Shown here one piece after another: positions 21,201-63,711 of a stretch of DNA of 64,000 bases (position 1 is its first letter; each line of letters begins with the position of its first letter). The stretch comes from Saturnia japonica. Lineage: Eukaryota; Arthropoda; Insecta; Lepidoptera; Saturniidae. The notes under the pieces are model-generated. The model searched no databases and was not told the DNA's origin. It was given only the letters and a program-made list of their open reading frames with translations. The translations under genes were made by a program, and so were the position numbers. The stretch covers positions 6,262,001-6,326,000 of the forward strand of contig CM065304.1 of the NCBI GenBank assembly GCA_033032175.1, read 5' to 3'.

Positions 21201-24200
21201 TACTAAAGAAAATGATCAAATTAAAAAAGTTACGGATGTAGTCAAAAAATATGAGGACAGTGATTGGTGGATGAGATTTTTATCTTCACAAAAGGTATCT
21301 AATTATGACATAAGTTTTTTTTTAATATATAGCTGCATGTATTTATAATGTAAGCCATTGCTCATGCCACTAGCTACTTCCAGCTGCTCTGCAAAAGTCT
21401 AACTCTATACTATGCTTGTCAAAACGGACTTCTATCGAAATTTCATTAAATATCCATTTAATTCGGTCCTTTTTGAATACTTCTATTTAAGAATAACTTA
21501 GCATGTTGAAAAAGGTGACGTCAGAAATAACGATCAGGCGGTCTGAACACATACTGGTGAAGCTAATGTAGTAAACTCTACCTATATCATACTAATTACT
21601 TATTAGCTTTTAATCAACGATCTCTATTATTTTAGTATCTCTCCTTGTCTACATTCTTACTCAAATAATGTTACTTAAAGTATTTTTTTGTAACGTTTTA
21701 ACAACATGCTAAATATATTCAATCATCTTCCAGCTACCTACCTGCCTTCCTGGTACCTACTACCTGCTTGATATTCATGCTTATGAAATTTATCATAAAA
21801 ACAATTATCATTGTTTTACAGGATACCGACGATTGTAATTTTGCTGATGACAGAATAACGGTTAGTAGTAATAAAGTACAAATAAAATAAACTGATAAGC
21901 AATTTAAGTATTTTATTTATGTTCTACAAGCATTTCTTATACTTATCTTATAGCATATCTTACACGGTTAAACATATTTTGGTTAACTCTTCATCAGATC
22001 TACAATACAGAATTAGAAACGCAACCAGAATTTTCTAAGTTCAAAGACTGGTGTACAACTTTTAAGCTGTATAACGGAAAGAAAACAGGAGTACCTGAGA
22101 AAGATGAGAGGTTGCATTGTGGGTATTTGAAAGCAGGTATAGCTATATATAAATGGCCACCGCCTCAGAATACAACAGCAGTGAGCCTTAGCGGCATCGA
22201 TTTGAGTCTAGGGTCAGTGTCTTATCTATTTATCTATCTTAGTTAAAAATTAAATCTATTTCAATTAAAAAAAATATGGTAGAGTAATTATTGTGTAGAA
22301 ATAGCATATAATAGTATAAACGATTAGATTAAAACACATCATATCTACCATATACTAATCCTGTCATCGCACTGCAGGGTATAAGTTTCTGTTTTACATC
22401 ATTCATCTTATTTAGGTAACAATCTTCAATGACTCACCTAGCTATTGATCTTCCAGTGAACCTACCATATCCAAACAAATGTTTTGCCCATCATTCATTA
22501 TTGAACATGTTAAATACCGTCTTCTTCTTGTCTTTATCTCACCTATGTAGGGTCGGCTCAACAGGTTTTTCTCTTCCATTCTTCTCTATCAGTTGTAATC
22601 GCAGTATTCAATCGTTATATGCACATATTATCTCTCCCACAATCCATGCAAACCATCTTTGTTCTTCCTGTACTCCAGTATGAAGGTGGATAGGTGAAGA
22701 TTCATATTTAACATTGTTTTAGATAAATAACTGAACTCCCTCTTCATAACATGACATGTACCACACTAACCTATTATTCCTCAGTTTTTCTGTAGCTGGT
22801 GCTATTTTCATACTGCCTTTGATATACTCATTTCTTATTTTATAAATTCTAGTTGGACCATACATCCATCATATCATTCGGATCTCTCCCACATGATTGT
22901 GATTTTCTTTCTTTCATCTCTTTCGTTGCCCTTCACTCAGATCCATATATCACAACAGGGCTTTAATCCACCCTGCATTTATTGTATTCATCACATCAAT
23001 GTTACCAATCTGTAACATTTTAAATATTTGTTCCAGATATTTCAACAACCATCCTACTAACGATCCCGCAAAATTTCTCGTAAGAGTCTACATTGTTAAA
23101 GGTGTGGACCTGATTGCTAAAGATTTTACTGGAAAATTAGACCCTTATAGTGTCATCAGTTGTGGTAACAAACATATGGGAGACAGGAACAGTTATATTA
23201 CAAACACTGTAAATCCTGTTTTTGGAAAGTAAGGATTATTAATATTATTTGTGAACTCTTGAATATTGTTGCCAGCTTGGGTGGTCTTGACTTTAAATGA
23301 GAAAAAAGAAAATGGGTCTGGCAAGCTTTAAATGCACTTGCATTGTATATTTAGATTTGAACAAAGTGATCTCTTTTCTGTATTTAATTTTTATTTTTGT
23401 CGTAATATCTGATCCATACTTTACTCTGAAATATTTTTATAGAACTTGAGAGTAGTAAAGATTGCAGAACTACGCGGTTCCTATTTTTATCAACTTTACC
23501 ACAAGGTTTAGGACAGTTTATACAAATGCATGTAAATTATTAAATGTAAATAATACCTGTTTTCCTAATAAACAATCGTTTTAAGTAAATACAAAATTAT
23601 TTAAATAAGAGAATATGTTTATAACATAAAGGATGTACGAGTTTCGCTGTACTTTACCTGAAGATTATCTGCTAACCGTTTCTCTGTATGACTATGACGC
23701 GATGTCTGCAGACGAGCTCATCGGTTCCACCACCATCGACCTGGAAGACAGAATCTACACTAAGCATAGAGCACGTGTTGGGTTACCAATTATTTATAAC
23801 TCGTAAGTATTTTCAAGATAATTTTAATTTTAAGATGTTACAATTTCGATATAATATCACTAGAGTGTCGATATAATGACAATGGTAGATTCCTATATAT
23901 GAAACAGCAGACTGGGCCCCAGGTACTTGATGACAAGTTCCCAACCTGAGGGTAGTAGCGAGTAAGGCGGGTGTTTGAAAGTGACCTACCACCATGCAAA
24001 ATGCATACCTTTACATTTATAGTATTTCATCATAAAAATTACATAATTTTGTTTTACACTAATAGTATTTATTTAATTTATTGATATATTACATTAGATT
24101 TATTTATTAGAAAAATCTTTATTATGGCCACAGATCAGGATCATCGAAGTGGCGAGACTGTATAAAGCCTTCTACAATCCTGGAAGAGTTATGTTCGTCA

Positions 24201-38688: not shown

Positions 38689-38811
38689 TATTAATTTATG
38701 CAGGCCGTCGCCGGAATGACAGCGGGTGACCGTCGTTAGATTTCGATCTCTAGATGGTCATCGTAGTTTTTGGATTGTATTGTGCTTACCATCAGGTACC
38801 GCAAAAAAAAA

Positions 38812-39852
38812 CGAACTGTACTCAGAGATGGCGCTAGTTGTGAGTTTCGCTATAGAGTGGAAGGTGAATTATCTACGCCCCGTCCTATACGCTCAGGCGT
38901 TCCCCAAGGTTCGATCCTGGCTCCTAGCCTTTTCAACCTGTACGTCAGTGATCTACCTAGACTCCCGCAGGTCAAGGTAGGGCTATACGCTGACGATACA
39001 GTCATATATGCCTCAAGAAGGAATAGATTCCACTTCAGACACAAAGTCCAACGCGCCGTGACCACTCTCGGGAAGTGGTTTAACGAGTGGCGAATAGCAA
39101 GAAATCCCTCGAAGAGCGCCGCGATGCTCTTCGATGCGGACTCATCACGGTTGCCGTGGAGACTCAAACCTCTTGAACTCTACCGTAATCCGATTCCCTT
39201 TGTGAGAGAGACCAAATATCTAGGTGTAACCCTAGATAGTCGGCTCTCTTTTAGACCTTACACCCGTAGAGTTAGGAACAGGGCCGCGTGGGTCCTGGGC
39301 CGTTTACATCCTCTGTTGTGTTCGGTGAGGAAAATGTCTACGCGACATAAGCTCACGCTCTACAAGATGTGCATCCGACCAATTTTGACATATAGTTGCG
39401 CTGCGTTCGCACATATGTCCGAGTCAAATTTTAGACGGTTACAAGTTATACAGAACAGGTCTCTTTATCGTCTCATCGGGGCCCCTAGGTATATTCGAAG
39501 CGAAGGTCTCCATAGAAATATGGAACTTCTTTCGATTCATGCCTACGTTAAACAGCTCTCATGATCGTATTTCGACACCGCGTCGAATCACGCGAACCCG
39601 CTAATTAAAGCAGCAGCTACTTATGTCGCGGTACCCACCACCACCCGGCATAAACGCCGGCTGTGCAATATTTTTACCGACCCAGACGATCGCATTGACA
39701 ATGCTAATAAATACTACTCATCCGTCTCTCCAAACAGAGCATGCCAGCGCCCACGACCGCGTAACCACCGTTCTCTCCGCAGAGGACGGGCGGTAAATTT
39801 CGCTCCCGCACACCTCCCACGTCCACCCTCTCCAGCGGTAACCCAAACCTAG
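38812..39852 (+). pseudogene. Jockey-type reverse transcriptase, 5'-truncated, one in-frame stop
   Basis: This is the C-terminal half of a LINE ORF2. It contains the conserved R-S-G-V-P-Q-G-S segment, the catalytic YADD box (38,986-38,997), the K-Y-L-G-V-T-L-D segment and a thumb region. The frame is open to a TGA at 39,562-39,564. Beyond it, the same frame stays open for 95 more codons (through RRLCNIFTDPDDRIDNANKY) to TAG at 39,850-39,852, so the TGA looks like a point nonsense change inside a longer ORF. The 5' end is cut inside the palm domain, typical of incomplete target-primed reverse transcription. GC content is well above the flanks. Confidence 0.85.
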
Positions 39853-47108: not shown

Positions 47109-48450
47109 GATTGTATAAATGTAAATATATACTTCAATGAAAGTAGTTGTAGGTACATTACACAAACTGGCCTGATTAGATGTAGTTCTGGACTTTCCGG
47201 TAGTTAATCACCCTACCACAGCGCCCTCTATCGAGTCTAGATATAGGTAATAAAGGTTACAAATTAATATTTTAAATTAAATAGTACTGTATAATTATAT
47301 TACAACGATCATTGTTATAGAATTTTGACCCCTCAAACCATTGACTTGGTCATTGAATGAAAAGTAACACAAGCAATATTCATCTTTAACGTTCATACTC
47401 ACGATACGAACGATAAACAAATTATCAATTCCCAATACTTTTTTGACAGAATGTATGTGTAATCAGAAAAGTATCTCTTTAATTCAATCAAAATAAATAG
47501 TAATGTGGGGGAATTTTTGGCGAGATCTTAAAGTGACATCTTCTGGTTTTTATTTTTTATTCATTACCTTAGGTTTTTTGACCGTATATTATTTAATATT
47601 GGTGTCAATTTGCGTGTTATAGTTTGGTTGTTGTGCACAAGTGAAGTGTATTAAAAATATAATATAAAGCGGTAAACATACATTTTGGGATGTCATAATA
47701 ACTCCCCAGATAGTTCCGATAAGAGAACCACAATCTTGTCAAAAGACCCAACTTTGTTTAATATAGGAAAATGTTACGAAGGCTTAAAACACAAACAAAA
47801 ACAAGACACTGGCAAGTGCTTTTTGTGGCGCCAAAACAAGAAGAAGAAGAAGTAATGTGGGAATAACTACATAAAATCATCATAATTATGTTTTCTAATA
47901 TCTCTGTTTTGAAATTGGCATTAATATCTTTGCCTGAATTTTTACAAATAAAAAGAAATAGCTTACCGCCAAATTTCGATATATAACCTTTTTCTTTTTC
48001 AAAAAGACACCGCGTGGCGACAAATACAATTGCTTTAAAAAAAATCGAAGTTATTATTTAACTGCGTATGTTATGTTAATAAGTTGACATCAATTCAACA
48101 AAAAATAATTTATTTCAGTATATATAATAATATATAATAATATATAATAATATTATCGCTATATTATAATACTCAATGTTTTTACATATTGTTAATTAAT
48201 GGACATAAAATACAGAATAACAAATTAAAAATGCATTAGGCAGAACAGATTTAAATTCCTTTGCCATTTAACTAAACATTGTATGAAAAAAAAACGTGTT
48301 CATATTTCAAATTGACTTACGTACCTACCTACTTCCTTCCTATAAAGTGAACAGTGAACAAATCTCCGGAGCGTCAGTGAAGAGATACGTGTTACGTAAC
48401 TATAAATTAACGTAATAGTTTTTGTCATATTTAATATATTTCCCTGTATA
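47109..48450. other. Spacer and presumed upstream region of the tandem-exon gene
   Basis: AT-rich, with a 'tatataataa' microsatellite at 48,119-48,150. A TCAGT pentamer at 48,374-48,378, 75 nt before the ATG at 48,451, fits the arthropod initiator consensus, but I see no DPE or TATA element at the right spacing. No other gene is supported. Confidence 0.5.
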
Positions 48451-48935
48451 ATGTCTAATTCGAGTTCATCTATTCATTCTGAAGAGGAGGAATCGGTTAT
48501 TCATTATGCAGCGGAAAGAAATAATCTTAAAAAGATTATATTTCAATGGCGGCAAAGCGAACAGACACCATGTGAGTTCATTTGAAATATTTTTGTACAA
48601 TTTATTTATATGGTTTATGTTTTGTTATGATACTTTATAATTATATTCATATTTTTATATATCGTTAAGTTGCTTTTTTAGACTGGACACCGCCGCGTCA
48701 ATGTGATATGTCGACACAACCTCCACTGGAGGTACCTCTTTCAGGTAATTCAGATGAAATACTTTCTATTGTCTTGCAATATATAATGTTCTCAGTAATT
48801 CATTTACATTCTGTCATCTGTAAAAAGATTCGTGTTCCTGTACGTCGAGCCCTCCACCACCACTATTAATAGAACGAGAGCCTGAAGTGAATCGACACGA
48901 CGATCCGGAGCGTAACCAACTGGAATCTGAGTCTG
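48451..48935 (+). CDS. Leader exons 1-3 of the tandem-exon gene
   Basis: ATG at 48,451 follows 'tccctgtata'. Exon 1 (121 nt) ends at donor GTGAGT (48,572) with QWRQSEQTP. Exon 2 (48,682-48,744) reads YWTPPRQCDMSTQPPLEVPL. Exon 3 (48,828-48,935) reads DSCSCTSSPPPPLLI and ends QLESES before GTAAGT. Each junction leaves one base, so phase 1 is set from exon 1 onward and matches the repeat exons. The ATG was chosen because the frame joins through both introns without a stop. Confidence 0.6.
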
Positions 48936-51900
48936 GTAAGTTTTTGTTATTGTATTAATGTTCACACTTGACCACAAAACTCAATGATGACAGTATAATA
49001 ATCCATGAAGGTTCATTGAAGGTGGTACGATGTCCACTGTACAGGGTACGTTTTAGCTATTCCTGCTCCCCTGGGGTAATTAAGTGTTCCGATGTTGCAG
49101 GAGCTATAGCATAAATCTTGGGCCACATTGTCACTTAAAATCAGGTGAGATTGTTAAACCAACCGCTAAACGCTAAAACTATCATCGGATAGGACTGCAG
49201 TCTTCCTTAATAAATTGTTACGAATTTCCGTAGCTACTTCTATTATTGATCTTCGACTCTGTCAGCCACCTAGTTTTCGAGTCAACTACCAACATCTCGG
49301 TGCTCACCATTATTTTTGGATCGTTATGTTATCGTAAGCTACAGTGCCGTGATGCAATAAAACTCCTAGATAGATAAAAATTGAAAAAAAAAAACTCAAA
49401 CTATATGTTTACATTTCTCTCCGTATTTGTGAAGCTCTTATTAAAATATAATTACACAGGAATGTAGTTTAATAGCATTTATTTATTCATGACGTTATTT
49501 CTGCAGACACGTCGGCAATTGAAGAAGAAGATGTACCAGATGCATCAAGATCTGACCAGGAGACTGTAATAGTATCAGGTAGGTTAGATCCATTCGATCA
49601 TATTTTATTTATGACTTCTCTAGGAAATCATCGTTTTTAGTTTCGAGTGCGATATTTTCTTTTTTCCTTTGTGAGTGATAAAATTGGTTAGGTTTCATAA
49701 CGCACGAGCCGAGCGGACGGTGGGAGCGGCTGGCGATTGCTAAAAACAAATAATTATTCGTTAAAAATTGATACCAAACTCCTAGATGGATAGACTTACG
49801 TCTATCTAATCAGTTATGAGGGCATTCAAAATTAAAACACAGCTCAATTACTACTTTTTCACATTTCTCTCCGTATTTGTGAAGCTCTTATTAAAATATA
49901 ATACACATGAATGTAGTTTAATAGCATTTATTTATTCATAACGTTGTTTCTTCAGACACGTCGGCAATGGAAGAAGAAGATGTACCAGATGCATCAATAT
50001 CTGACCAGGAGACTGTAATACTATCAGGTAGGTTAGATTCATTCGATCATATTTTATTTATGACTTCTCTAGGAAATCATCGTTTTTAGTTTCGAGTGCG
50101 ATATTTTCTTTTTTCCTTTGTGAGTGATAAAATTGGTTAGGTTAGGTTTGAACAGCGATCATAACGCACGAGCCGAGCGGACGGTGGGAGCGGCTGGCGA
50201 TTGTTAAAAACAAATAATTATTCGTTAAAAATTCATACCAAACTCCTAGATGGATAGACTTACGTCTATCTAATCAGTTATGAGGGCATTCCAAATTAAA
50301 ACAAAGCTCAATTACTACTTTTTCACATTTCTCTCCGTATTTGTGAAGCTCTTATTAAAATATAATACACATGAATGTAGTTTAATAGCATTTTTTTATT
50401 CATGACGTTGTTTCTTCAGACATGTCGGATATGGAAGAAGAAGATATACCAGATGCAACAATATCTGACCAGGAGACTGTAATACTATCAGGTAGGTTAG
50501 ATTCATTCGATCATATTTTATTTATGACTTCTCTAGGAAATCATCGTTTTTAGTTTCGAGTGCGATATTTTCTTTTTTCCTTTGTGAGTGATAAAATTGG
50601 TTAGGTTAGGTTTGAACAGCGATCATAACGCACGAGCCGAGCGGACGGTGGGAGCGGCTGGCGATTGTTAAAAACAAATAATTATTCGTTAAAAATTCAT
50701 ACCAAACTCCTAGATGGATAGACTTACGTCTATCTAATCAGTTATGAGGGCATTCCAAATTAAAACAAAGCTCAATTACTACTTTTTCACATTTCTCTCC
50801 GTATTTGTGAAGCTCTTATTAAAATATAATACACATGAATGTAGTTTAATAGCATTTTTTTATTCATGACGTTGTTTCTTCAGACATGTCGGATATGGAA
50901 GAAGAAGATATACCAGATGCAACAATATCTGACCAGGAGACTGTAATACTATCAGGTAGGTTAGATTCATTCGATCATATTTTATTTATGACTTCTCTAG
51001 GAAATCATCGTTTTTTGTTTCGAGTGCGATATTTTCTTTTTTCCTTTGTGAGTGATAAAATTGGTTAGGTTAGGTTTGAACAGCGATCATAACGCACGAG
51101 CCGAGCGGACGGTGGGAGCGGCTGGCGATTGTTAAAAACAAATAATTATTCGTTAAAAATTCATACCAAACTCCTAGATGGATAGACTTACGTCTATCTA
51201 ATCAGTTATGAGGGCATTCCAAATTAAAACAAAGCTCAATTACTACTTTTTCACATTTCTCTCCGTATTTGTGAAGCTCTTATTAAAATATAATACACAT
51301 GAATGTAGTTTAATAGCATTTTTTTATTCATGACGTTGTTTCTTCAGACATGTCGGATATGGAAGAAGAAGATATACCAGATGCAACAATATCTGACCAG
51401 GAGACTGTAATACTATCAGGTAGGTTAGATTCATTCGATCATATTTTATTTATGACTTCTCTAGGAAATCATCGTTTTTTGTTTCGAGTGCGATATTTTC
51501 TTTTTTCCTTTGTGAGTGATAAAATTGGTTAGGTTAGGTTTCAACAGCGATCATAACGCACGAGCCGAGCGGACGGTGGGAGCGGCTGGCGATTGTTGAA
51601 AACAAATAATTATTCGTTGAAAATTCATACAAAACTCCTAGATGGATAGACTTACGTCTATCTAATCAGTTATGAGGGTATTCAAAATTAAAAAAAGCTC
51701 AATTACTATTATACTTTTTCATATTTCTCTCCGTATTTGTGAAGCTCTTATTAAAATATAATAAACATGAATGTAGTTTAATAGCATTTATTTATTCATG
51801 ACGTTGTTTCTTCAGACACGTCGGCAATTGATGAAGAAGATGTACCAGATGCATCAATATCTGACCAGGAGACTGTAATACTATCAGGTAGGTTAGATTC

Positions 51901-54522
51901 ATTCGATCATATTTTATTTATGACTTCTCTAGGAAATCATCGTTTTTTGTTTCGAGTGCGATATTTTTTTTTCCTTTGTGAGTGATAAAATTGGTTAGGT
52001 TAGGTTTCAACAGCGATCATAACGCACGAGCCGAGCGGACGGTGGGAGCGGCTGGCGATTGTTGAAAACAAATAATTATTCGTTGAAAATTCATACAAAA
52101 CTCCTAGATGGATAGACCTACGTCTATCTAATCAGTTATGAGGGTATTCAAAATTAAAAAAAGCTCAATTACTGTTATACTTTTTCATATTTCTCTCCGT
52201 ATTTGTGAAGCTCTTATTAAAATATAATACACATGAATGTAGTTTAATAGCATTTATTTATTCATGACGTTGTTTCTTCAGACACGTCGGCAATTGATGA
52301 AGAAGATGTACCAGATGCATCAATATCTGACCAGGAGACTGTAATACTATCAGGTAGGTTAGATTCGTTCGATCATATTTTATTTATGACTTCTCTAGGA
52401 AATCATCGTTTTTTGTTTCGAGTGCGATATTTTCTTTTTTCGTTTGTGAGTGATAAAATTGGTTAGGTTAGGTTTGAACAGCGATCATAACGCACGAGCC
52501 GAGCGGACGGTGGGAGCGGCTGGCGATTGTTGAAAACAAATAATTATTCGTTGAAAATTCATACAAAACTCCTAGATGGATAGACCTACGTCTATCTAAT
52601 CAGTTATGAGTGTATTCAAAATTAAAAAAAGCTCAATTACTATTATACTTTTTCATATTTCTCTCCGTATTTGTGAAGCTCTTATTAAAATATAATACAC
52701 ATGAATGTAGTTTAATAGCATTTATTTATTCATGACGTTGTTTCTTCAGACACGTCGGCAATTGAAGAAGAAGATGTACCAGATGCAGCAATGTCTGACC
52801 AGGAGACTGTAATACTATCAGGTAGGTTAGATTCATTCGATCATATTTTATTTATGACTTCTCTAGGAAATCATCGTTTTTTGTTTCGAGTGCGATATTT
52901 TCTTTTTCCCTTTGTGAGTGATAAAATTGGTTAGGTTCGAGCCGAGCAGACAGCGGGAGCGGCTGGTGATTGCTAAAAACAAATAATTATTCGTTAAAAA
53001 ATCATACCAAACTCCTAGATGGATAGACTTACGTCTATCTAATCAGTTATGAGGGTATTCAAAATTAAAACAAAGCTCAATTACTACTTTTTCACATTTC
53101 TCTCCGTATTTGTGAAGCTCTTATTAAAATATAATACACATGAATGTAGTTTAATAGCATTTATTTATTCATGACGTTGTTTCTTCAGACACGTCGGCAA
53201 TTGAAGAAGAAGATGTACCAGATGCAGCAATGTCTGACCAGGAGACTGTAATACTATCAGGTAGGTTAGATTCATTCGATCATATTTTATTTATGACTTC
53301 TCTAGGAAATCATCGTTTTTTGTTTCGAGTGCGATATTTTCTTTTTCCCTTTGTGAGTGATAAAATTGGTTAGGTTAGGTTTGAACAGCGATCATAACGC
53401 ACGAGCCGAGCGGACGGTGGGAGCGGCTGGCGATTGTTGAAAACAAATAATTATTCGTTGAAAATTCATACAAAACTCCTAGATGGATAGACCTACGTCT
53501 ATCTAATCAGTTATGAGGGTATTCAAAATTAAAAAAAGCTCAATTACTACTTTTTCACATTTCTCTCCGTATTTGTGAAGCTCTTATTAAAATATAATAC
53601 ACATGAATGTAGTTTAATAGCATTTATTTATTCATGACGTTGTTTCTTCAGACAGAACAGCGATCATAACGCACGAGCCGAGCGGACCGCGGGAGCGGCT
53701 GGCGATTGTTAAAAACAAATAATTATTCGTTAAAAATTCATACCAAACTCCTAGATGGATAGACTTACGTCTATCTAATCAGTTATGAGGGTATTCAAAA
53801 TTAAAACAAAGCTCAATTACTATAATACTTTTTCACATTTCTCTCCGTATTTGTGAAGCTCTTATTAAAATATAATACACATGAATGTAGTTTAATAGCA
53901 TTTATTTATTCATGACGTTGTTTCTTCAGACACGTCGGCAATGGAAGAAGAAGATGTATCAGATGCATAAAGATCTGACCAAGAGATAATAAAACAATCA
54001 GGTAGGTTAGATGCATTCGATCTAATTTTATTGGTAAAATATAAAATTTCTCTAGTAAATCATCGTATGGTTTTGGAAATTTTTTTGAACTAGCGACAAA
54101 ATGAATAGTTGACTCCAAAAACGTGGCAGTGACCGGCTCAGTTTTAGAACCGCTATTGTCGAGTTCAGACTCCTAAATTTTTTTTCATTGTATTTTGTAA
54201 TTTTTTAGGTACATGGGTATTGTGTTAGGTTCTATAATAAACTTCCTAAGTACGTGAAGCCAGTTTTATTGTAGAATAAGTATTAAAGGATGGATCATTC
54301 ATTACGTGAATGCCGGTGATGTCTCGAAATAACTTCCTCTCTTTACATCAAATGAAAATAATAATGACTTTAATACAATATAAATGTATATAAATAAAAT
54401 GATTGTTGTTTGCATGTGCGCGCATCAAGCTAAAACGACTGGTTAGATCTTGATATTTTCTTTTTGTCTATCGAACAGATTCGTCCGGGTCTTCAAGTTC
54501 CTTGCCGTCGTTGATAATTTGA
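48451..54522 (+). CDS. Unrecognised gene built on a tandem array of 72-nt exons
   Basis: Predicted exons: 48,451-48,571, 48,682-48,744, 48,828-48,935, then nine 72-nt exons starting at 49,507, 49,956, 50,420, 50,884, 51,348, 51,816, 52,282, 52,750 and 53,189, then 54,479-54,522 (TGA at 54,520-54,522). All junctions are GT-AG and all internal introns after exon 1 are phase 1. The total is 984 nt, 327 residues. The leader is serine- and glutamate-rich (MSNSSSSIHSEEEESVIHYA), then proline-rich (SSPPPPLLIEREPEVNRHDD). The repeat is an acidic 24-mer such as DTSAIEEEDVPDASISDQET plus VILS. The end is DSSGSSSSLPSLII. No signal peptide, membrane span or known domain is visible. The product may be an intrinsically disordered acidic protein; its function is unknown to me. 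A decayed copy of the repeat exon (53,930-54,001) must be skipped for the terminal exon to be used. Confidence 0.6.
53640..53929 (+). pseudogene. Array unit that has lost its exon
   Basis: The acceptor and first exon bases ('ttgtttcttcagacag') are followed directly by the intron phrase 'aacagcgatcataacgcacg'. The exon body, the donor and the first part of the intron are deleted. The rest of the unit is normal. This leaves an acceptor without a paired donor. Confidence 0.85.
53930..54001 (+). pseudogene. Last array exon, with an in-frame stop
   Basis: Still 72 nt with intact acceptor and donor 'gtaggttag', but the 14th codon is TAA (53,968-53,970), a serine, threonine or alanine codon in other copies. 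The end has drifted to QEIIKQS. Phase is 1 to 1, so skipping it keeps the frame into the terminal exon; including it would end the protein at DTSAMEEEDVSDA. Confidence 0.8.
54479..54522 (+). CDS. Probable terminal exon of the tandem-exon gene
   Basis: A strong acceptor, 'ttttctttttgtctatcgaacag', precedes a phase-1 start that reads DSSGSSSSLPSLII and TGA (54,520-54,522). The serine-rich style resembles exon 3. The copia LTR begins 39 bp later, at 54,562. Confidence 0.5.
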
Positions 54523-54561: not shown

Positions 54562-54760
54562 TGTTATGTAACGAGAATGTCGGTTCAATAAAGTATTTTA
54601 TAGAATTATATATGGCAACCCCGACACTAGACATATTCTGTTTTCCCATGGACGCCGCACGAACTGTAAGTGCATTAAGTAAATTGTCTTCATATATATA
54701 GTCTTCATTAATAAAGCAGTGATTTGGCCATACGCTACTTTTATTAACAAAGTCCTAACA
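54562..54760 (+). repeat. Copia 5' LTR
   Basis: 199 bp, TG to CA (TGTTATG ... CCTAACA). It holds two AATAAA signals (54,587 and 54,711). Because the neighbouring gene's stop is 39 bp upstream and in the same orientation, these could serve as its polyadenylation signals. Confidence 0.92.
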
Positions 54761-54778
54761 GGTTATGGGCCCAGTAAA
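54761..54778 (+). promoter_or_regulatory. Copia primer-binding site
   Basis: 'ggttatgggcccagtaaa' directly after the left LTR. It is close to the primer-binding site of Drosophila copia, which pairs with an internal part of initiator methionine tRNA. Confidence 0.7.
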
Positions 54779-54965
54779 GGCCGTAACACTGTTTTAGGTG
54801 AAGACGGGTGTGGCGTGAAACGAGGCGGCGTGGGTGGTTGGTTAGGTTACCGGTGGCGGCTGCGTCGGGCAATGCGTTCTGAGGTGAAGATACCAGGTGC
54901 AGGTATTAATCAGAAAATCAGGCGTTGGTGTTGTCGAACGGTAAAATTTTTTTGTTGATAAAGTC

Positions 54966-55937
54966 ATGGATCAGCAAGGGAATACAACCACGGGAGTCAT
55001 CAAGCTGGAGGAACTACGAAATTGGAACATGTGAAAATTTCAGATATCAGTTCTGATGAGGAGCATGGAGGTATTTTCAGTAGTAAATAGTACTGAAGTG
55101 AAAACTGATAAGAACAATGAAGAGTGGAATAAAAAGGATATAAAAGCTCAGAGTCTTATCGTTACGAGGCTCAGTGAAGGTGCTATGGTACACATCTTAA
55201 CATGTGGGACGGCTTCAGATATGTGGAACAAGCTACACAGCGTCTATGAGCAGAAAAGTAGTACGAGTATACATATGTTGCAACAGCGCATCTTCAATTT
55301 TAAGTTTGATGAAGGGAAAGATATGCCAACATTTCTGGCTCATGTACAAGAGATGACAAGTCAACTTAAGGAAGCTGGAGAAGGTGTTTCAGATAAGTTC
55401 ATAGTAACAAAGGTGCTGATGTCTCTGCCGGACAAGTACAAGCATTTCATCTCAGCGTGGGAGTCTGTGGATCCTGCAAGACAGTCGTACGATGAGCTTG
55501 TTGGTCGACTCTTGGTGGAGGAAGACCGAATGAAGTCGAGAGGCAGTGACGGTTGTGAAGAAGATGTTGCTATGGTTACAGCTAAAGGTAGAAGTAATTT
55601 TAAATGCCCCAAATGCGGTCGTCCTGGACATTTTATTAAAAATTGTAAAAGTAGTGATAACCATACCAGTAAAAGTAATATAAAAAAATGTTTTACATGT
55701 AACCAGATAGGTCATTTTAAAAGGGAATGTCCTAAGCGTAACGGTAATGTTATGAATAGTAATAGTAATGCATTCATTGTAAACGCGTTTCTGAACGAAT
55801 TAAATCAAAGTAATCATAGTTGGTTAGCTGACAGCGGAGCTAGTGAGCACATGACGTTTGAGAGAAATGTTTTTGTTACCTATAATACGATGTTAGAACA
55901 AAATAGATTTGTTAATGTTGGTGATGGTGACCAAAAA
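54966..55937 (+). pseudogene. Copia gag and protease, broken
   Basis: ATG at 54,966. An in-frame TGA at 55,032-55,034 interrupts the N-terminus; the same frame then stays open. Copia gag features are visible (EWNKKDIKAQSLIVTRLSEG, MPTFLAHVQEMTSQL). There are two CCHC zinc knuckles, CPKCGRPGHFIKNC and CFTCNQIGHFKREC, then the aspartic protease active site SWLADSGASEHMT. The coding sequence stops being copia-like at about 55,937, where the nested element begins. Confidence 0.88.
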
Positions 55938-56014
55938 AATTACTACCCCAGGAGGGTACCAGCTCTGCTGGAGAATCCCTCCCCGGGCAAAGCCTGGGCT
56001 GCCCCACGTTTTCT

Positions 56015-56040
56015 GGGGGGGGGGGGGGGGGGGGGGGGGG
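56015..56040 (+). repeat. 26-nt poly-G tract
   Basis: An uninterrupted G26 run in the 5' region of the R1-clade element, between 'cacgttttct' and 'caaagttttg'. Such a run can form stacked quadruplexes and is prone to length errors in sequencing. Confidence 0.9.
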
Positions 56041-56227
56041 CAAAGTTTTGCACGATGATTTAAATACGACGACTAAGGCGAACTTAAGGACTGACGGAAA
56101 AGCTAAAACGATAACTCTGGCAAATCCACAACTGACAACTGAGGTGCCCACTGTGGTCCTGGAGAGGGACGTACCGCTTGACCGATTTGCGGTCCAGCAC
56201 TGGTCCGAAACCTCCAGTAGCCTAGCG

Positions 56228-58012
56228 ATGTCGTCTGCTGATTGCAGAAAGCGGACACATATAGAGGATGGTGCCGATGCGAAAGGGGCGGAAATTCCGC
56301 CTCCTAGCAAAGTAACCACGGCGCAAAGAGGTAAAACCCGTGTCCCGGGCTCATCTGCTAGGGTAACACGTACTGTAGTGGTAGGCGAGGCAAGAGAGGC
56401 GTCTGATGTTGCGGATCCGGTGGTGCTTGAGAGGATTGAACACCTCGACCCAGAGAGTCTCAGGGCGCTTGCCAACGAGAAGACGGACGCGATCCTTGAC
56501 GTGGCCAAGAAATCTGGCCACCTAAAGGGTACGTTCGTCAAAGCTCTAAAGGAAGCGGCCTGGACTCTTCAGGAGGTTACTGCCACTGCCCTTGCGCGCA
56601 CGGTGGCTCAGGAGACCCTCATCCTCCGGCACGAGATGAGGAAACTCCGTCAGGAGCTCGATAAGCTCAAGGCGGAGCTCGAATCGTTACGCGGACGGAG
56701 TGAGGTTCTACCTGCGCCTTCATTGCCGCAAGCGCCGGAATCTCGGGGACATGAACCTCTAATGGAAAAGATAATGGACGCTATGGGGGCCCAAATGGAG
56801 AGGATGGAGCGGTCCCTTCGGGTCTCAATGCGGGAGGTTGTGGCCGCCCGCATTGAGGCCCTAGATGATCGGCTTCTCCCCGCCAAAGTGGTTCGCCCCC
56901 CATTGGCTGCCGATAGGAAGCCAGATGCATGTGGCGCTACCTCAAGGCCTGTTGGCCCCAAGGCTTCACGACGCAAGGCCGCGAGGCTGAAAGTTGCGAT
57001 ACCCGACTCTGCACCTCGTGTGGAGGGTGAGGATTCTGCCGAACATCCCCAGGAGCCTCTGGGAATGGAGTGGGCAATGCCGGGGGCTAGTGCACCTGCT
57101 GCAGTCCCTGCAGCTGCTGATGTTGTCGGATGGACTACTGTGTCCCGCCGCCGTCGGAAAAAGAAGCCTTTAGCGATGCCGGGGGCTGCCACCGCTGTGG
57201 CTCCTGCTACCGTTGGGAGGGTGCTTGGGTGTAAGCCCAATGCGAAGCTCCCCTCGACACCACGCTCAGCTGCAGTGGTCATCACACTGCAACCAGAGGC
57301 CTTGGCGGGGGGACTAAGCTACAGGGACGCTTTCTTAAAGGTACGAGAGCATGTAGCGTTGGCGGACCTCGGCATCGAGGCTATTTCAAGTCGGTCCACA
57401 GCCACGGGATCTAGGGTCATCATTATCCTTGGCTCTCGTGGTTCCGAGCAGGCGGATCAGTTGGCTGAACAGTTACGGACAGCACTCGGGGACGTGGCCA
57501 CCGTGGCCAGGCATATCAAAAAGGCGAACATACGTGTGCTGGGGATTGATGACTCGGTGTCAGTCGAGGAGGTGGTGGCAGCTGCGGCCAAGAAAGGAGG
57601 CTGTGAGCCAGCCCTTATCAGAGCTGGTGAAATACGCACATATGGCAGGGGCATGGGAGCGGTGCACTTATCGCTCCCAGTCGCCGCTGCACGGGCGCTG
57701 GTTGAGGCAGGCCGTCTGTTGGTCGGGTGGAGTTCGGCGCGTGTGCGCCTTTTGGAGAGTGGGCCCATGCGCTGTTTCAAGTGCATGGGTGTGGGACACA
57801 CGCGCCCGCTCTGCCCGTCAACAGTGGACCGAGGGGAGCTGTGCTTCAGATGCGGGCAAGCCGGACATAAGGCGTTCAGTTGCAAAGCTGAAAAGCTTAA
57901 CTGCGCCTTGTGCGCTGACGCTGGCAGGCCGTCGGGGCACTACATGGGGGGAGCGGCTTGCAGGCCGCCAGACCCATCCAAGCGAGGAGCACCAGCACCG
58001 AGACCTCCTTAG
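56228..58012 (+). CDS. R1-clade ORF1 (gag-like) protein, intact
   Basis: Starting at the ATG at 56,228 gives 594 residues (the frame is open from 56,048). A coiled coil lies at about residues 128-158 (HEMRKLRQELDKLKAELESL). Three C-terminal zinc knuckles begin at about residue 516: CFKCMGVGHTRPLC, CFRCGQAGHKAFSC, then CALCADAGRPSGHYMGGAAC. This triple set with the preceding L-L-V-G-W-x-x-A-R-V segment is the hallmark of R1/TRAS/SART ORF1, an RNA-binding protein that packages the element transcript. There is no stop or frameshift, in contrast to the copia around it. The start is a choice; a non-ATG upstream start is possible. Confidence 0.85.
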   Translation: MSSADCRKRTHIEDGADAKGAEIPPPSKVTTAQRGKTRVPGSSARVTRTVVVGEAREASDVADPVVLERIEHLDPESLRALANEKTDAILDVAKKSGHLKGTFVKALKEAAWTLQEVTATALARTVAQETLILRHEMRKLRQELDKLKAELESLRGRSEVLPAPSLPQAPESRGHEPLMEKIMDAMGAQMERMERSLRVSMREVVAARIEALDDRLLPAKVVRPPLAADRKPDACGATSRPVGPKASRRKAARLKVAIPDSAPRVEGEDSAEHPQEPLGMEWAMPGASAPAAVPAAADVVGWTTVSRRRRKKKPLAMPGAATAVAPATVGRVLGCKPNAKLPSTPRSAAVVITLQPEALAGGLSYRDAFLKVREHVALADLGIEAISSRSTATGSRVIIILGSRGSEQADQLAEQLRTALGDVATVARHIKKANIRVLGIDDSVSVEEVVAAAAKKGGCEPALIRAGEIRTYGRGMGAVHLSLPVAAARALVEAGRLLVGWSSARVRLLESGPMRCFKCMGVGHTRPLCPSTVDRGELCFRCGQAGHKAFSCKAEKLNCALCADAGRPSGHYMGGAACRPPDPSKRGAPAPRPP

Positions 58013-58360
58013 GGGGGTTGTGTAGACGGTTGGTGGTAGGAGTAGGCGGTTTTCGCCTCCTTCTTCTGCCCTAGCTGAACCAAGGGGAGACGGGTTGGGG
58101 TGCCCGTCTTCCTATTGCACTGGTTCAGCCGTCTGAGATACAGTTGGGGTTGTACCAGACTGTCTCTCTTTAGCGCCGAGGCCCGACTGGGGCCGGCCGC
58201 CGGGGCGACGTGGCTGATTGCAACCGCAGTGCCCGCAGCGTCCCACTATGGTGGCCGATGGTACACCGTGGAGTTTTAGTGAGTAGGAGTCTCACATAAC
58301 CACTCGTCCCCTTGGGCGGGTGTGTACGTATGACGGGATTCTCCACGTCAAAAAAAAAAA

Positions 58361-60077
58361 ATAGGGAAGAAATGGTGAGAGAGAGAGCAGTAGTACTGGA
58401 TTGAAGGAAGGGAGAGCGTCATTTGACTTTGACCAGGAGGTGGAAACTCAGGAGTTCTTTACTCATGAAGGTAGTAGTGAGGAAAGTTTAGATAAGATTT
58501 TTGAGATAAATAAAATAGTAAAAACTAGAAGTGGAAGGGTGATAAAAAAACCTAGAAAGTATGATTATGGTATGATAGTGTTAGAAAATGAACGTCAAAG
58601 TTATAGGGAAGCGATGAATTCTGAAAAAGCAGGTAAATGACAAGAGGCTATTGACTTAGAGCTCCAACAGCTGACTGAGAATAATACTTGGACGTTGTTA
58701 TCCGAGATGCCAAAAGGAAAGGAAAAGAAAGGGGAAAACAATGAAAGTAAATTTAAAGCTAGGTTAGTAGCTAGGGGCTTTGAACAAAGTTGTGATGATA
58801 TTTATGATTTGTATGCACCTGTGGCAAAATTAAATACTTTTAGAGTTTTTATAGCTGTTGCCACCAAGTTAAATTTGCAAGTAGGTCAAATGGATGTTGT
58901 GTAGTGCTTTTCTTAACAGTGATATTAATGAAGAGGTGTACTTAAAGTTGCCAGAGGGTGTTAATTTAGAACCGTATTGTAAGCTTAATAAGTCAATCTA
59001 TGGACTTAAAAGGTCTCCAAAATATTGGAATTGTACTTTTGATAATGTTATGCTATCCATGGGGTTTAAGAAGTCTGAGAAAGATAGTTGTTTATATAGT
59101 AAGTGTGAGAATAATAAGAGAACTTTTCTATTTTTATATGTAGATGATGTAATTTATTTTGGAAATTATCAAAAAGAATTAACACAGTTAAGAAATATGT
59201 TGTTAAATACGTTTAAAATGAAAGATATGGGGAAAATTAATAAGTTTTTAGGTATTGAGGTCAACCAAGATTTAAGTAAAGAATGTACAACCATAGGTCA
59301 AAGGGAATACTTGGAAATTTTATTAAATATGTATGGAATGTCCTATTGTAAACCATTATTGTTACCTATAGATAAAAACTTTAAGTTTGATTTATAAAAA
59401 GAGAAAAGTCTGAAAATAAAGAATTAGAGTTTAAGTGTAGAAAACTTATAGGAAATTTAATGTATGCTCTATCAGGGTCAAGGCCAGATTTATGTGCTGT
59501 TGTTACAATGTTAAGTAGATATCAGGCAAAAGCAAGTAAATTATTATATAAGTTATTGTTAAATGTATTAAGATATGTAAAGGGAACTTTGAATATGTGT
59601 TTAATTTACTATAGGCATAAAAGTAATGTAGAGGGCTATGTTGACAGTGACTGGGGTGGAAGTGATGACCGTAGGTGAACGACAGGCTGTTGTTTCAAGG
59701 TTTTTGGCTGTTCAGTTATTTGGTTCACAAAGAAACAACAATCAGTCGCACTGTCATCAACTGAAGCTGAGTATGTTGCTTTATGTCATGCCACAAGTGA
59801 GGCTTGTTGGCTTCAACAATTATTATTAGTTTTTGGGTTCTCTGTGTGTCCTATCACTATGTATGAGGACAATCAGTCCACTATGAAGATAGCCCATATG
59901 GCTGGTAATTGTCGAGTGAAACATTTAGCAATTAAGCAAAGTTTTGTTAAAGAGAAGTTGAATGCCGGAATTATTAAGTTATTTTATCTTTGTACAAATG
60001 AGCAACTAGGTGATATGTTTACAAAGCCATTGGGTGGGGTTCAGTTTACGAAATTTAGGGATAAATTGTTTAATTAG
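58361..60077 (+). pseudogene. Copia reverse transcriptase and RNase H, broken
   Basis: It begins after the integrase region with KTRSGRVIKKPRKYDYG, then the reverse transcriptase: FKARLVARGF, the SAFLNSDI segment, IYGLKRSPKYWN and the catalytic YVDD (59,137-59,148). RNase H follows with the SSTEAEY box, DNQS, and the closing KPLGG. Breaks: in-frame TGA at 58,638-58,640, a +1 shift at about 58,902, another shift at about 59,393-59,400, and TGA at 59,676-59,678. Stop at about 60,075. Confidence 0.88.
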
Positions 60078-60221
60078 CGTAAAGTGATTGTCATTTTTTT
60101 TAACTAGGGTTGCTAGGGTTGTGTTTTTGGGTATGGAAATTATATAGGTAGTGTTAATTTCATGTACTTTTGTTATAGTGTTTAGTAGTTATAAAATATT
60201 TTATTGAGGGGGGGGGGGGGG

Positions 60222-60416
60222 TGTTATGTAACGAGAATGTCGGTTCAAAAAAGTATTTTATAGAATTATATATGGCAGCCCCGAAACTAGACATATTCTG
60301 TTTTCCCATGGACGCCGCACGAAATGTAAGTGCATTAAGTAAATTGTCTTCATATAGTCTTCATTAATAAAGCAGTGATTTGGCCATACGCTACTTTTAT
60401 TAACAAAGTCCTAACT
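60222..60416 (+). repeat. Copia 3' LTR
   Basis: 195 bp, preceded by a 14-G polypurine tract. It differs from the left LTR by loss of 'atat' and single changes, one of which turns the first AATAAA into AAAAAA. It ends CCTAACT rather than CCTAACA. Confidence 0.92.
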
Positions 60417-61042: not shown

Positions 61043-62758
61043 TTGGTAAACGCTAAGAAAAATGATAAAAGAAAAATCAGTTGGACAGAAATTTCAGAAA
61101 ATGCATTTTTACAATGTAAGGCAGGCCTTCAGCAAGCCGTAACCTTGACACATCCGTTACCAAATGTACCACTCTCATCCATGACCGATGCATCGAATAC
61201 TTGCATAGGCGCGGTATTACAACAAAAAATAAATTGTTCTTGGAAGCCTCTAGGATACTTTTCTAAGAAATTAACATCAACGGAACAAAAGTAGGTATTC
61301 TATAATACATATGACCGCGAGTTGCTAGCTATATACAAGTCCATTAAATATTTTCAAAAATTATTTGAAGACCGACCATAAGCCACTATGTCACGCTTTT
61401 TCAAAATTTGGTAAGGACGATAAGGAGACGCCTAGAAGGACAACTTATTTTTATTAGCGAATTTACAGTCGACATACAACATATTACCGGTATAAGATAA
61501 TATTGTAGCCGACACATTATCACGTTTAGAAACAATTTTTTGTCTGAGCGTACTAGACTACGTTGCACTTGCTGACGCGCAAGTGAAAGATGAGTACATA
61601 TCGCATCAGGTACAAAGTTCAAGTAGTGACAATAACATTAATTTAAAGCGAATTAAGTTACGTATTTGTCGCAAAGCGATTTATTGCTAAACTTCTAATG
61701 ATATTATTAGGCCTTACTTAACAGAAAAGTTTAGAAAAATTGCCTTTGATAGTATACATAATTTAAGCCATCCAGGTATACGTACCACGAGGAAAATGAT
61801 TTCAAAACAGTATTTTTGGCCTGGCATGAACATAGATATAGGGCGATGGGCCACAGGTTGTATACAGTGTCAAAGAGTAAAGGTCAACCGCCACGTCATC
61901 TCAGACTTAGGAGTATTTCAAAAGGTCGAACGTTTTGAGCATATCCACGTGGATATTTTTGGTCCATTACCAACGTCTCAACAAGGATTAAGATACTTAA
62001 TTACTATAGTAGATAGATGAACTCGTTGGCCAGAAGCTTTCCCAGTGCAAGACATTACCGCCGACGTAGTTGCAAAATGTATATACAAAGGATGGATAGT
62101 TAGGTATGGTTGTCCTGTTCGAATTACTAGCGATCAAGGACGACAGTTTGAGTCGAATTTATTTTCAAAATTAATGAGATTCTTAGGAATACACAAAATT
62201 CGTACCACCCCTTATCATCCCCAGAGTAACGGGATGGTGGAAAGATGGCATAGGTCGCGGAAAGCAGCGCTTATGGCTCGTTTACTCGATAGTAATACTA
62301 CTTGGTCAGATGAATTGCCTACAGTTTTACTAGGTCTTCGCACCGCGATACTAACCGATAGTGGAGTTAGTGCAGGAGAATTAGCCTTCGGAAAAACTTT
62401 ACGTTTTCCTGGGCAATTCTATGACAGTTCGAAGAATAGAGACCCGAACGATCTGTACAGTATAGTCGAAAAGATTCGTGAGAGTATCAATAGTTATCGT
62501 CCAACGAGAGACAAACTAGGTTCGTGAAAAATATTTATTCATTCTGCATTTAAGGTGTTGAAAAGAAGTCCTAAAATGTTCAAAATACAATTACCCGGTC
62601 GCGAAGCTCACATTTCAATAGATAGATTGAAGCCAGCTTTCGTCATTAAAGATTTTGAAACGCCAGTATATAGTATACCAAACAACAAGAGTACTGAGAA
62701 ATTACAGGAATCGTCGCAACAACTGTCACACAAGCATCATATAATTAGGAGCGGTTGA
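61043..62758 (+). pseudogene. Ty3/gypsy pol remnant: RNase H and integrase
   Basis: The fragment begins inside the end of reverse transcriptase (SENAFLQCKAGLQQAVTL) and shows RNase H (TDASNTCIGAVLQQ, PLGYFSKKLTSTEQ). The integrase follows: zinc-binding H-H-C-C region (HNLSHPGIRTTRKMI, then CIQCQRV), core aspartates HVDIFGPLP and TSDQGRQFESN, and glutamate GMVERWH, then the C-terminal region (PGREAHISIDRLKPAF). In-frame stops and shifts occur, including TGA at 62,018-62,020 and several between 61,291 and 61,690. No gag, protease or most of the reverse transcriptase is present; the 5' part is missing. Confidence 0.88.
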
Positions 62759-63414
62759 ATAATCCGATCTCCTGTGAGATTTATGCTTTAGGTATTGTCT
62801 AGCATAAGTGAATATACTCGTATTATATAACGTAGGTAGATACTATATTACAAATTATTCCCTGAAATATATTATATTTAATGTTAGTTGTTTTTTTAAT
62901 TTTTATTTTTTGATAATATATAGTTATACAACTTATATAATAGATAACATACATTTTTTTTTCTCGATAACTTAGGTAGACAGTCGAATGCAAACTAGAT
63001 TTAAATTTATAATGAGTTGATATTAGGTATATATAGATTTAATATTATTATGATATACAGTTTAATTTTAAGTTAATGCATAACAATTTAATGTTATGAT
63101 TACAATTCTGGAATGTTACTGCATTAAATAGGATAGTATGAACTACGATGTAATATTAAATAAAGTTTTATTATTTTATTTAGCTAATAATTTTTTTTTA
63201 ATGAACCTATAGGAATCTTATTTCAATATTTTCATTACATATTTGCGACTATATTACGAAACTGTAAGGTGGATATAACTGTGTAAGCATTTACTTATTG
63301 TGTAATAAATATTAAATACGTATTTTGTCCACTCTGCCTTGCATATTCATAAATTTAGTTATTATAGCGTCAGTAAGCGTAGCAAGAGGTTATTTTAGTT
63401 ACTTTAATAAAATA
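62759..63414. other. AT-rich gap between integrase and the small ORF
   Basis: No conserved coding. The last 90 bases before the ATG at 63,415 are open in the same frame (hydrophobic reading FINLVIIASVSVARGYFSYF) but contain no ATG. An acceptor-like 'ggttattttag' at 63,388-63,398 could join an upstream exon. Confidence 0.5.
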
Positions 63415-63711
63415 ATGGGAGGATATCAATCTAAGGATAACACCGCAGTGGCTCAGGCTCAAGTGAACACTGGGGATTTGAGCCAGAAAATGAATTTAAT
63501 GGGCATCGTACTCATGGTTATGGCAGTGATCGTAATTGGCGTGGTGTTATATGGCATACGATTACTATGGCACCGCCGCGTCAAAAGTTGGCTTCGCCGG
63601 GAAATAATCACGGCAAATACGAACGCACCTGTGGTGCGGGTCCAGACTGTACAGCAACAGTCCGCCACCGCTGCCGGTACCTCAACCGCTGCGCACTCAG
63701 TATACATCTAG
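63415..63711 (+). CDS. 98-residue myristoylated-type single-span protein, probable third ORF of the gypsy element
   Basis: ATG at 63,415 in good context (aataATGgga). The N-terminus MGGYQSK fits the N-myristoylation pattern (glycine 2, small or polar residue 6, lysine 7). A single hydrophobic span, NLMGIVLMVMAVIVIGVVLY, is followed by basic HRRVKSWLRR, so the C-terminal half (S-, T-, A- and Q-rich) probably faces the cytosol. It has no stop or frameshift even though the adjacent pol is decayed. It sits between integrase and the putative 3' LTR, where envelope or accessory genes sit in such elements, but it has no envelope features (no furin site, no cysteine-rich ectodomain). I do not recognise the family. 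Confidence 0.6.
   Translation: MGGYQSKDNTAVAQAQVNTGDLSQKMNLMGIVLMVMAVIVIGVVLYGIRLLWHRRVKSWLRREIITANTNAPVVRVQTVQQQSATAAGTSTAAHSVYI

Follow-up and report, generated by a model that had tools for sequence, protein, structure and literature searches.

The locus examined here, which lies within a 64-kb stretch of insect DNA (the window), raises the question of whether a 72-nt exon that recurs in tandem together with its intron forms the body of a protein-coding gene, or whether the array is better explained as a decaying sequence, a set of alternative exons or an error of assembly. The sequence supports a gene built around tandem exons that keep the frame, and we consider it moderately probable that the region 48451-54522 harbours a protein-coding insect gene, probably lepidopteran to judge by the style of the sequence, centred on repeated copies of one phase-symmetric 72-nt exon and its intron. 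The predicted gene, in which nine intact copies of the exon lie on the forward strand, is composed of the following elements:

48401-48406, forward strand: TATAAA, possible core promoter found by eye, 50 nt upstream of the ATG
48451-48571, forward strand: leader exon 1 with the ATG, 40 codons plus 1 nt; donor 9.07 bits
48682-48744, forward strand: leader exon 2, 63 nt; acceptor 4.28 bits, donor 8.75 bits
48828-48935, forward strand: leader exon 3, 108 nt; weak acceptor of 0.2 bits, donor 11.07 bits
49507-49578, forward strand: repeat exon R1, from sequence; acceptor 7.23 bits
49956-50027, forward strand: repeat exon R2
50420-50491, forward strand: repeat exon R3
50884-50955, forward strand: repeat exon R4, identical to R3
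51348-51419, forward strand: repeat exon R5, identical to R3
51816-51887, forward strand: repeat exon R6
52282-52353, forward strand: repeat exon R7, identical to R6
52750-52821, forward strand: repeat exon R8
53189-53260, forward strand: repeat exon R9, identical to R8
54479-54522, forward strand: proposed last exon with a TGA; acceptor 6.35 bits

When the leader, the nine repeats and the last exon are joined, they yield one open frame of 984 nt with a single terminal stop, encoding 327 aa, which bears out the proposal, made in a sequence-only reading of this DNA, of nine in-phase 72-nt exons preceded by three 5' exons and followed by a short 3' exon. GT-AG borders are found at every junction of the 13-exon model, and the repeat exons share the acceptor CAG/ACA and the donor CAG/GTAGGT in nine of nine cases. 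Each of the 11 internal exons begins at codon position 2, and since their lengths (63, 108 and nine times 72 nt) are divisible by three, the frame is kept at any repeat number; as claimed, each unit would add 24 residues without a frame break. Splice sites were scored with weight matrices for the metazoan consensus. The donors of the model, including that of the repeat exon (11.48 bits), range from 8.75 to 11.48 bits and lie above the 99th percentile of the GT sites in the window (8.27 bits, n=3539), while the 0.2-bit acceptor of exon 3 counts against the model.

Dinucleotide shuffling of the leader region, repeated 1000 times, never produced a leader-type chain (three exons with an ATG, the needed phase and all donors reaching 8.5 bits), and among 215 other segments of the window, on both strands, none contained such a chain of at least 250 nt. 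These figures are supporting rather than clean P values, because the thresholds were set after the leader had been seen. With the donor threshold relaxed to at least 4.4 bits, some chain appeared in 25 of 300 shuffles, and a length of 292 nt was reached in one of 300. A chance origin of the leader chain is unlikely. The model employed here uses a 292-nt leader; the longest chain found by program measures 304 nt, with an exon 2 that is 12 nt longer. The end exons had also been described as unique, which stands, if narrowly: set against the start of exon 3, the opening 42 nt of the last exon agree at 16 of 42 positions, a likeness that 576 of 10000 shuffles equalled or bettered, and homology between the two was dropped on that account.

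The array itself consists of exon-intron units of 449, 464, 464, 464, 468, 466, 468, 439 and 463 bp, in order, and the measured range of 439-468 bp agrees with the 440-470 bp first proposed. Tandem Repeats Finder reports a period of 464, 9.2 copies and 96% matches. Pairwise comparison of the nine unit introns, across 397 aligned columns, gives 0-15 substitutions, with zero substitutions between introns 2 and 3 and one in intron 4, and the nine intact exons fall into five types. Three further elements, none of them mentioned in the sequence-only reading, bear on how the array arose:

49377-49506, forward strand: end of intron 3, akin to the unit intron by sequence comparison (87% against unit 1), the old left edge of the array
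53652-53929, forward strand: exon-less unit recognised by sequence comparison, in which the exon and the first part of the intron are lost and the acceptor is kept
53930-54001, forward strand: tenth exon copy, R10, with intact acceptor and donor and an in-frame TAA after 13 codons; either a skipped pseudo-exon or the true last coding exon

At the right edge, R10 and the start of its intron are 81% identical to unit 1, and the stretch past R10 alone 76%. Unequal crossing-over is expected to leave a young inside and older edges, and the inside of this array is young and its edges older. The array had been called recent, and this holds for the inner units and not for the edges, where identity goes down to 87%, 81% and 76%. 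It may be proposed that the array grows and shrinks through unequal crossing-over and conversion between the near-identical introns, in which case alleles would differ in steps of 24 residues with the frame intact. Shared bases at the deletion joint of the exon-less unit are not supported by the analysis. Each unit intron also carries the near-palindrome AACAAATAATTATTCGTT or a close form of it (50209-50270 and matching places in other units), and a GATAGAC..GTCTATC hairpin occurs in each fully sequenced unit intron; that of unit 2, of 66 nt, has a folding energy of -13.3 kcal/mol (z -2.40), with 3 of 200 shuffles as good.

The place where the gene ends admits two versions. The acceptor of R10 scores 6.66 bits and its donor 11.48 bits, and its TAA follows DTSAMEEEDVSDA, 31 nt upstream of the donor. 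Both splice sites are good and the stop is in frame, so translation may finish in R10 and not reach the proposed last exon. If R10 is spliced in, the predicted product may measure 326 aa, with the proposed last exon untranslated. The AATAAA copies near the two possible ends are the following:

54236-54241, forward strand: AATAAA downstream of R10 and upstream of the proposed last exon, with a second copy at 54393
54562-54759, forward strand: long terminal repeat (LTR) of copia type, starting 40 nt past the stop, with AATAAA at 54587 and 54710

Either the AATAAA at 54236 or that at 54393 could mark the end of a transcript terminated by R10. No poly(A) signal belonging to the gene itself was found just past the TGA, the copies at 54587 and 54710 belonging to the copia LTR. 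The copia element, likewise absent from the sequence-only reading, is recognised by its gag (E 1.1e-33) and RVT_2 (E 2.1e-36) domains in Pfam and by LTRs at 54562-54759 and 60222-60415 that are 96% identical; the bases on its two sides, GAAAC and AAAAC, point to a target duplication that differs at one base, provided that the LTR extends one base past the aligned part.

The stop in R10, the unit that has lost its exon, and the copia element so close to the end of the frame, in a transposon-rich stretch, are also what one would expect of a decaying gene or pseudogene, in which the leader was once real, the array has turned into a 464-bp satellite with the exon as a passenger, and the locus is no longer expressed. 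The nine open exons could then be explained by recent duplication alone, and the failure to find a homologue, in a protein collection apparently poor in insects, points in the same direction. The distribution of changes speaks on the other side. The nine exons are free of stops and indels, as against four or so indels in the introns, the leader frames and donors are intact, and the 11 changes at the 10 variable sites of the nine intact exons are all nonsynonymous (11/11) and are placed unlike those of R10. We regard decay as unlikely, while giving it more weight than the other rival explanations.

The figures behind this judgement come from few sites, picked post hoc, in copies that share a common history: the all-nonsynonymous pattern has a chance of 0.026-0.049 without selection, over the transition/transversion ratios tried; variable sites make up 10 of 72 in the exon and 26 of 397 in the intron (p 0.05); and where two or more copies carry the minor base, the counts are 8 of 72 and 12 of 397 (p 0.006). 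Within the same limits, codons 1-15 hold nine of the ten variable sites of the intact copies (p 0.08 against length alone), and of the eight changes seen in R10 alone six fall within codons 16-24, a contrast with the intact copies of p 0.013. Units 2 and 3 differ at five exon positions, at none in the following intron and at seven in the preceding one; since R3-R5 are linked to the preceding intron, a contrast with the following intron alone is exaggerated. The codon pattern agrees with a constrained second half of the repeat (SDQETVILSD) and a first half that is free or diversifying, and the excess of exon over intron variation, together with the all-nonsynonymous changes, lends weak support to translation.

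Another explanation, which we hold to be quite improbable, is that the copies are mutually exclusive or otherwise alternatively included, so that each transcript takes up one or some of them and the locus encodes a set of variants instead of a single long protein. The tandem, homologous, equal-sized exons, of five types among nine, would suit such a scheme, as would the GATAGAC...GTCTATC-type hairpin in each fully sequenced unit intron, and Dscam-type mutually exclusive exons offer an insect precedent for homologous exons in tandem (excerpt of PMC1397879). The present array differs from that system in that its frame tolerates several copies per transcript and that identical copies occur among them: a length of 72 nt, a multiple of three, makes joint inclusion harmless, and selection among identical copies adds nothing. 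In addition, no clear docking site with selectors was seen among the longest 25 of 67 inverted pairs, which are mostly copies of one near-palindrome. An assembly artefact, by which copy number was inflated or the order of units confused, would fit the near-identity of some units (zero substitutions between introns 2 and 3, one in intron 4) and is very improbable: the exons fall into five types, the introns differ by several indels and the edges are unlike, all of which indicates that several copies exist.

If the favoured reading of a gene with a jointly spliced exon array is followed, the product can be described from its predicted sequence. The 327-aa protein has a pI of 4.05, and its 216 repeat residues lack K, C, F, W and Y altogether and R almost entirely, with an excess of acidic over basic residues of 7 to 9 per repeat; the acidic character proposed at the outset is confirmed by the pI and by the make-up of the repeats. 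From its composition the product is probably disordered, and an N-terminus without a signal peptide, as judged by eye, would indicate an intracellular protein. The product may thus be pictured as a strongly acidic protein of 326 or 327 aa that is not secreted and is probably disordered, each repeat of which would serve as a further copy of a single short binding module. In that picture the contact would be made by the conserved half SDQETVILSD, with its three aliphatic residues, S-D and surrounding CK2-type sites, leaving the first half free to vary.

That the module could bind SUMO is suggested by several features: the pattern hhhS[DE] is present in nine of nine repeats (as against 358 of 20000 shuffles of a single unit), the protein holds 27 S/T-x-x-D/E sites of CK2 type, and the acidic or phosphorylatable flank beside an aliphatic stretch that characterises SUMO-interacting motifs (SIMs) is present. 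In its three closing aliphatic residues and the S-D after them, the repeat resembles the end of the DAXX SUMO-binding motif IIVLSDSD, in which, according to the excerpted text of PMC8616421, CK2 phosphorylation of the serines raises affinity for SUMO-1. DAXX-type and multi-SIM SUMO-binding proteins (DAXX, RNF4 and Degringolade) are like the moth repeat in having aliphatic residues followed by S-D, acidic or phosphorylatable residues, and several copies (PMC8616421). The moth repeat differs from DAXX-type motifs in that the first core place is occupied by T; the strict core hhXh or hXhh (I, V, L) has zero matches to either pattern in the whole 327-aa protein, which, unlike DAXX, RNF4 and Degringolade, also shows no RING or other domain at Pfam cut-offs. 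Because the strict four-residue core fails, we do not count the protein among the SIM proteins. Since not every SIM matches the consensus (PMC8616421, excerpt), SUMO binding by SDQETVILSD is kept as the most specific proposal, if a doubtful one; a multivalent module with no specified partner is likelier. The fullest version of the scheme, in which a lineage-restricted protein would consist almost entirely of variable-number, SUMO-binding-like, CK2-regulated modules, with diversifying selection in the variable half and constraint in the contact half, exon copy number tuning allele length as an evolvable valency dial and R10 providing a second, stop-bearing end, is distinctly speculative and improbable as a whole.

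Searches for relatives returned nothing that would place the protein in a known family. In a protein collection that, like the viral contigs, seems to contain little from insects, the 327-aa model had no relative at E up to 10 among the 7992 candidates scored, a capped set. A 135-aa version with one repeat, for which 64 candidates were scored, likewise had none up to that E value; a control, a 98-aa stretch of another open reading frame of the window, recovered two relatives among three candidates, so that some related material is in the collection, yet the absence of homologues stays weak evidence. In viral contigs, two DNA patterns gave zero stretches, and two protein queries gave 24 and 10 pattern-bearing stretches with no relative among them. 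Exon 1 and a three-repeat piece found no PDB sequence at E up to 10, Rfam nothing at gathering scores in the 64-kb window, and Pfam nothing for either exon 1 or the leader up to an E of 10, and four hits, all under their cut-offs, for the full protein. An ankyrin-like look of exon 1 (VIHYAAERNNLKKI), judged against what we take to be the consensus, is left unsupported by the Pfam result for exon 1 and the leader.

Bicycle exons of aphids are not known to form a near-identical array, and bicycle proteins are secreted; schistosome micro-exons are mostly shorter and not known to be near-identical, and their products are likewise secreted. Bicycle genes do offer an insect example of many small internal exons, the first base of which falls almost always at codon position 2 (PMC9168663, excerpt), and the moth model shares with them small exons and a codon position 2 start in 11 of 11 internal exons; membership was rejected with the published classifier coefficients (logit -6.28; same source, in part). 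Schistosome micro-exon genes, with their serial small symmetric exons (excerpt of PMC5825161), are alike in that small symmetric exons follow one another in series. The closest precedent in design is human LPA KIV-2, where coding exon-intron units stand in tandem within one gene and their number sets protein length (PMC7613587, in excerpt), the unit being 5.6-kb long (PMC6314250, in excerpt). Both genes have tandem in-frame exon-intron units inside one gene, here nine exons in one frame; LPA KIV-2 differs in encoding folded kringle domains of a secreted protein, in units about twelve times longer, and in its known length variation and function, as opposed to a 24-residue acidic unit and no signal peptide by eye in the moth gene. 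The statement that no gene of this design with this sequence had been described consequently holds for the sequence, as far as it could be searched, and not for the design, which LPA KIV-2 precedes (PMC7613587, excerpt). Among the papers listed, from a literature that takes in few subscription journals, no gene with this sequence was recognised, nor a lepidopteran gene of this design. What looks new is the protein, the tandem-exon design being already known.

At present this is a predicted gene model from one window. If it is transcribed, it would provide a compact natural system in which to watch an exon array alter protein length in whole steps, one whose exons seemingly diverge faster than the flanking introns, and would allow the effects of copy number and selection on disordered multivalent proteins to be measured.

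The surrounding window holds further recognisable sequences. A ferlin-like exon with a C2 domain lies at 22903-23232 (Pfam C2 E 3.6e-06; best PDB match dysferlin, E 4.8e-14), and a reverse transcriptase frame at 38767-39564 (Pfam RVT_1 E 9.4e-18) probably belongs to a non-LTR element. The coding region of the copia-type element (54562-60415) is interrupted by other sequence and includes a 26-base G run at 56015-56040; an open frame of 693 codons that encodes a CCHC knuckle (55931-58012) also lies there and perhaps represents a nested element. At 62021-62527, an integrase-like frame (Pfam rve E 7.2e-06, 26.6 bits, below the cut-off of 32.6) is perhaps part of a gypsy-type element. Finally, an open frame at 63316-63711, with a possible membrane segment and no Pfam family at cut-off, has two relatives of metagenome source at 55-57% identity.
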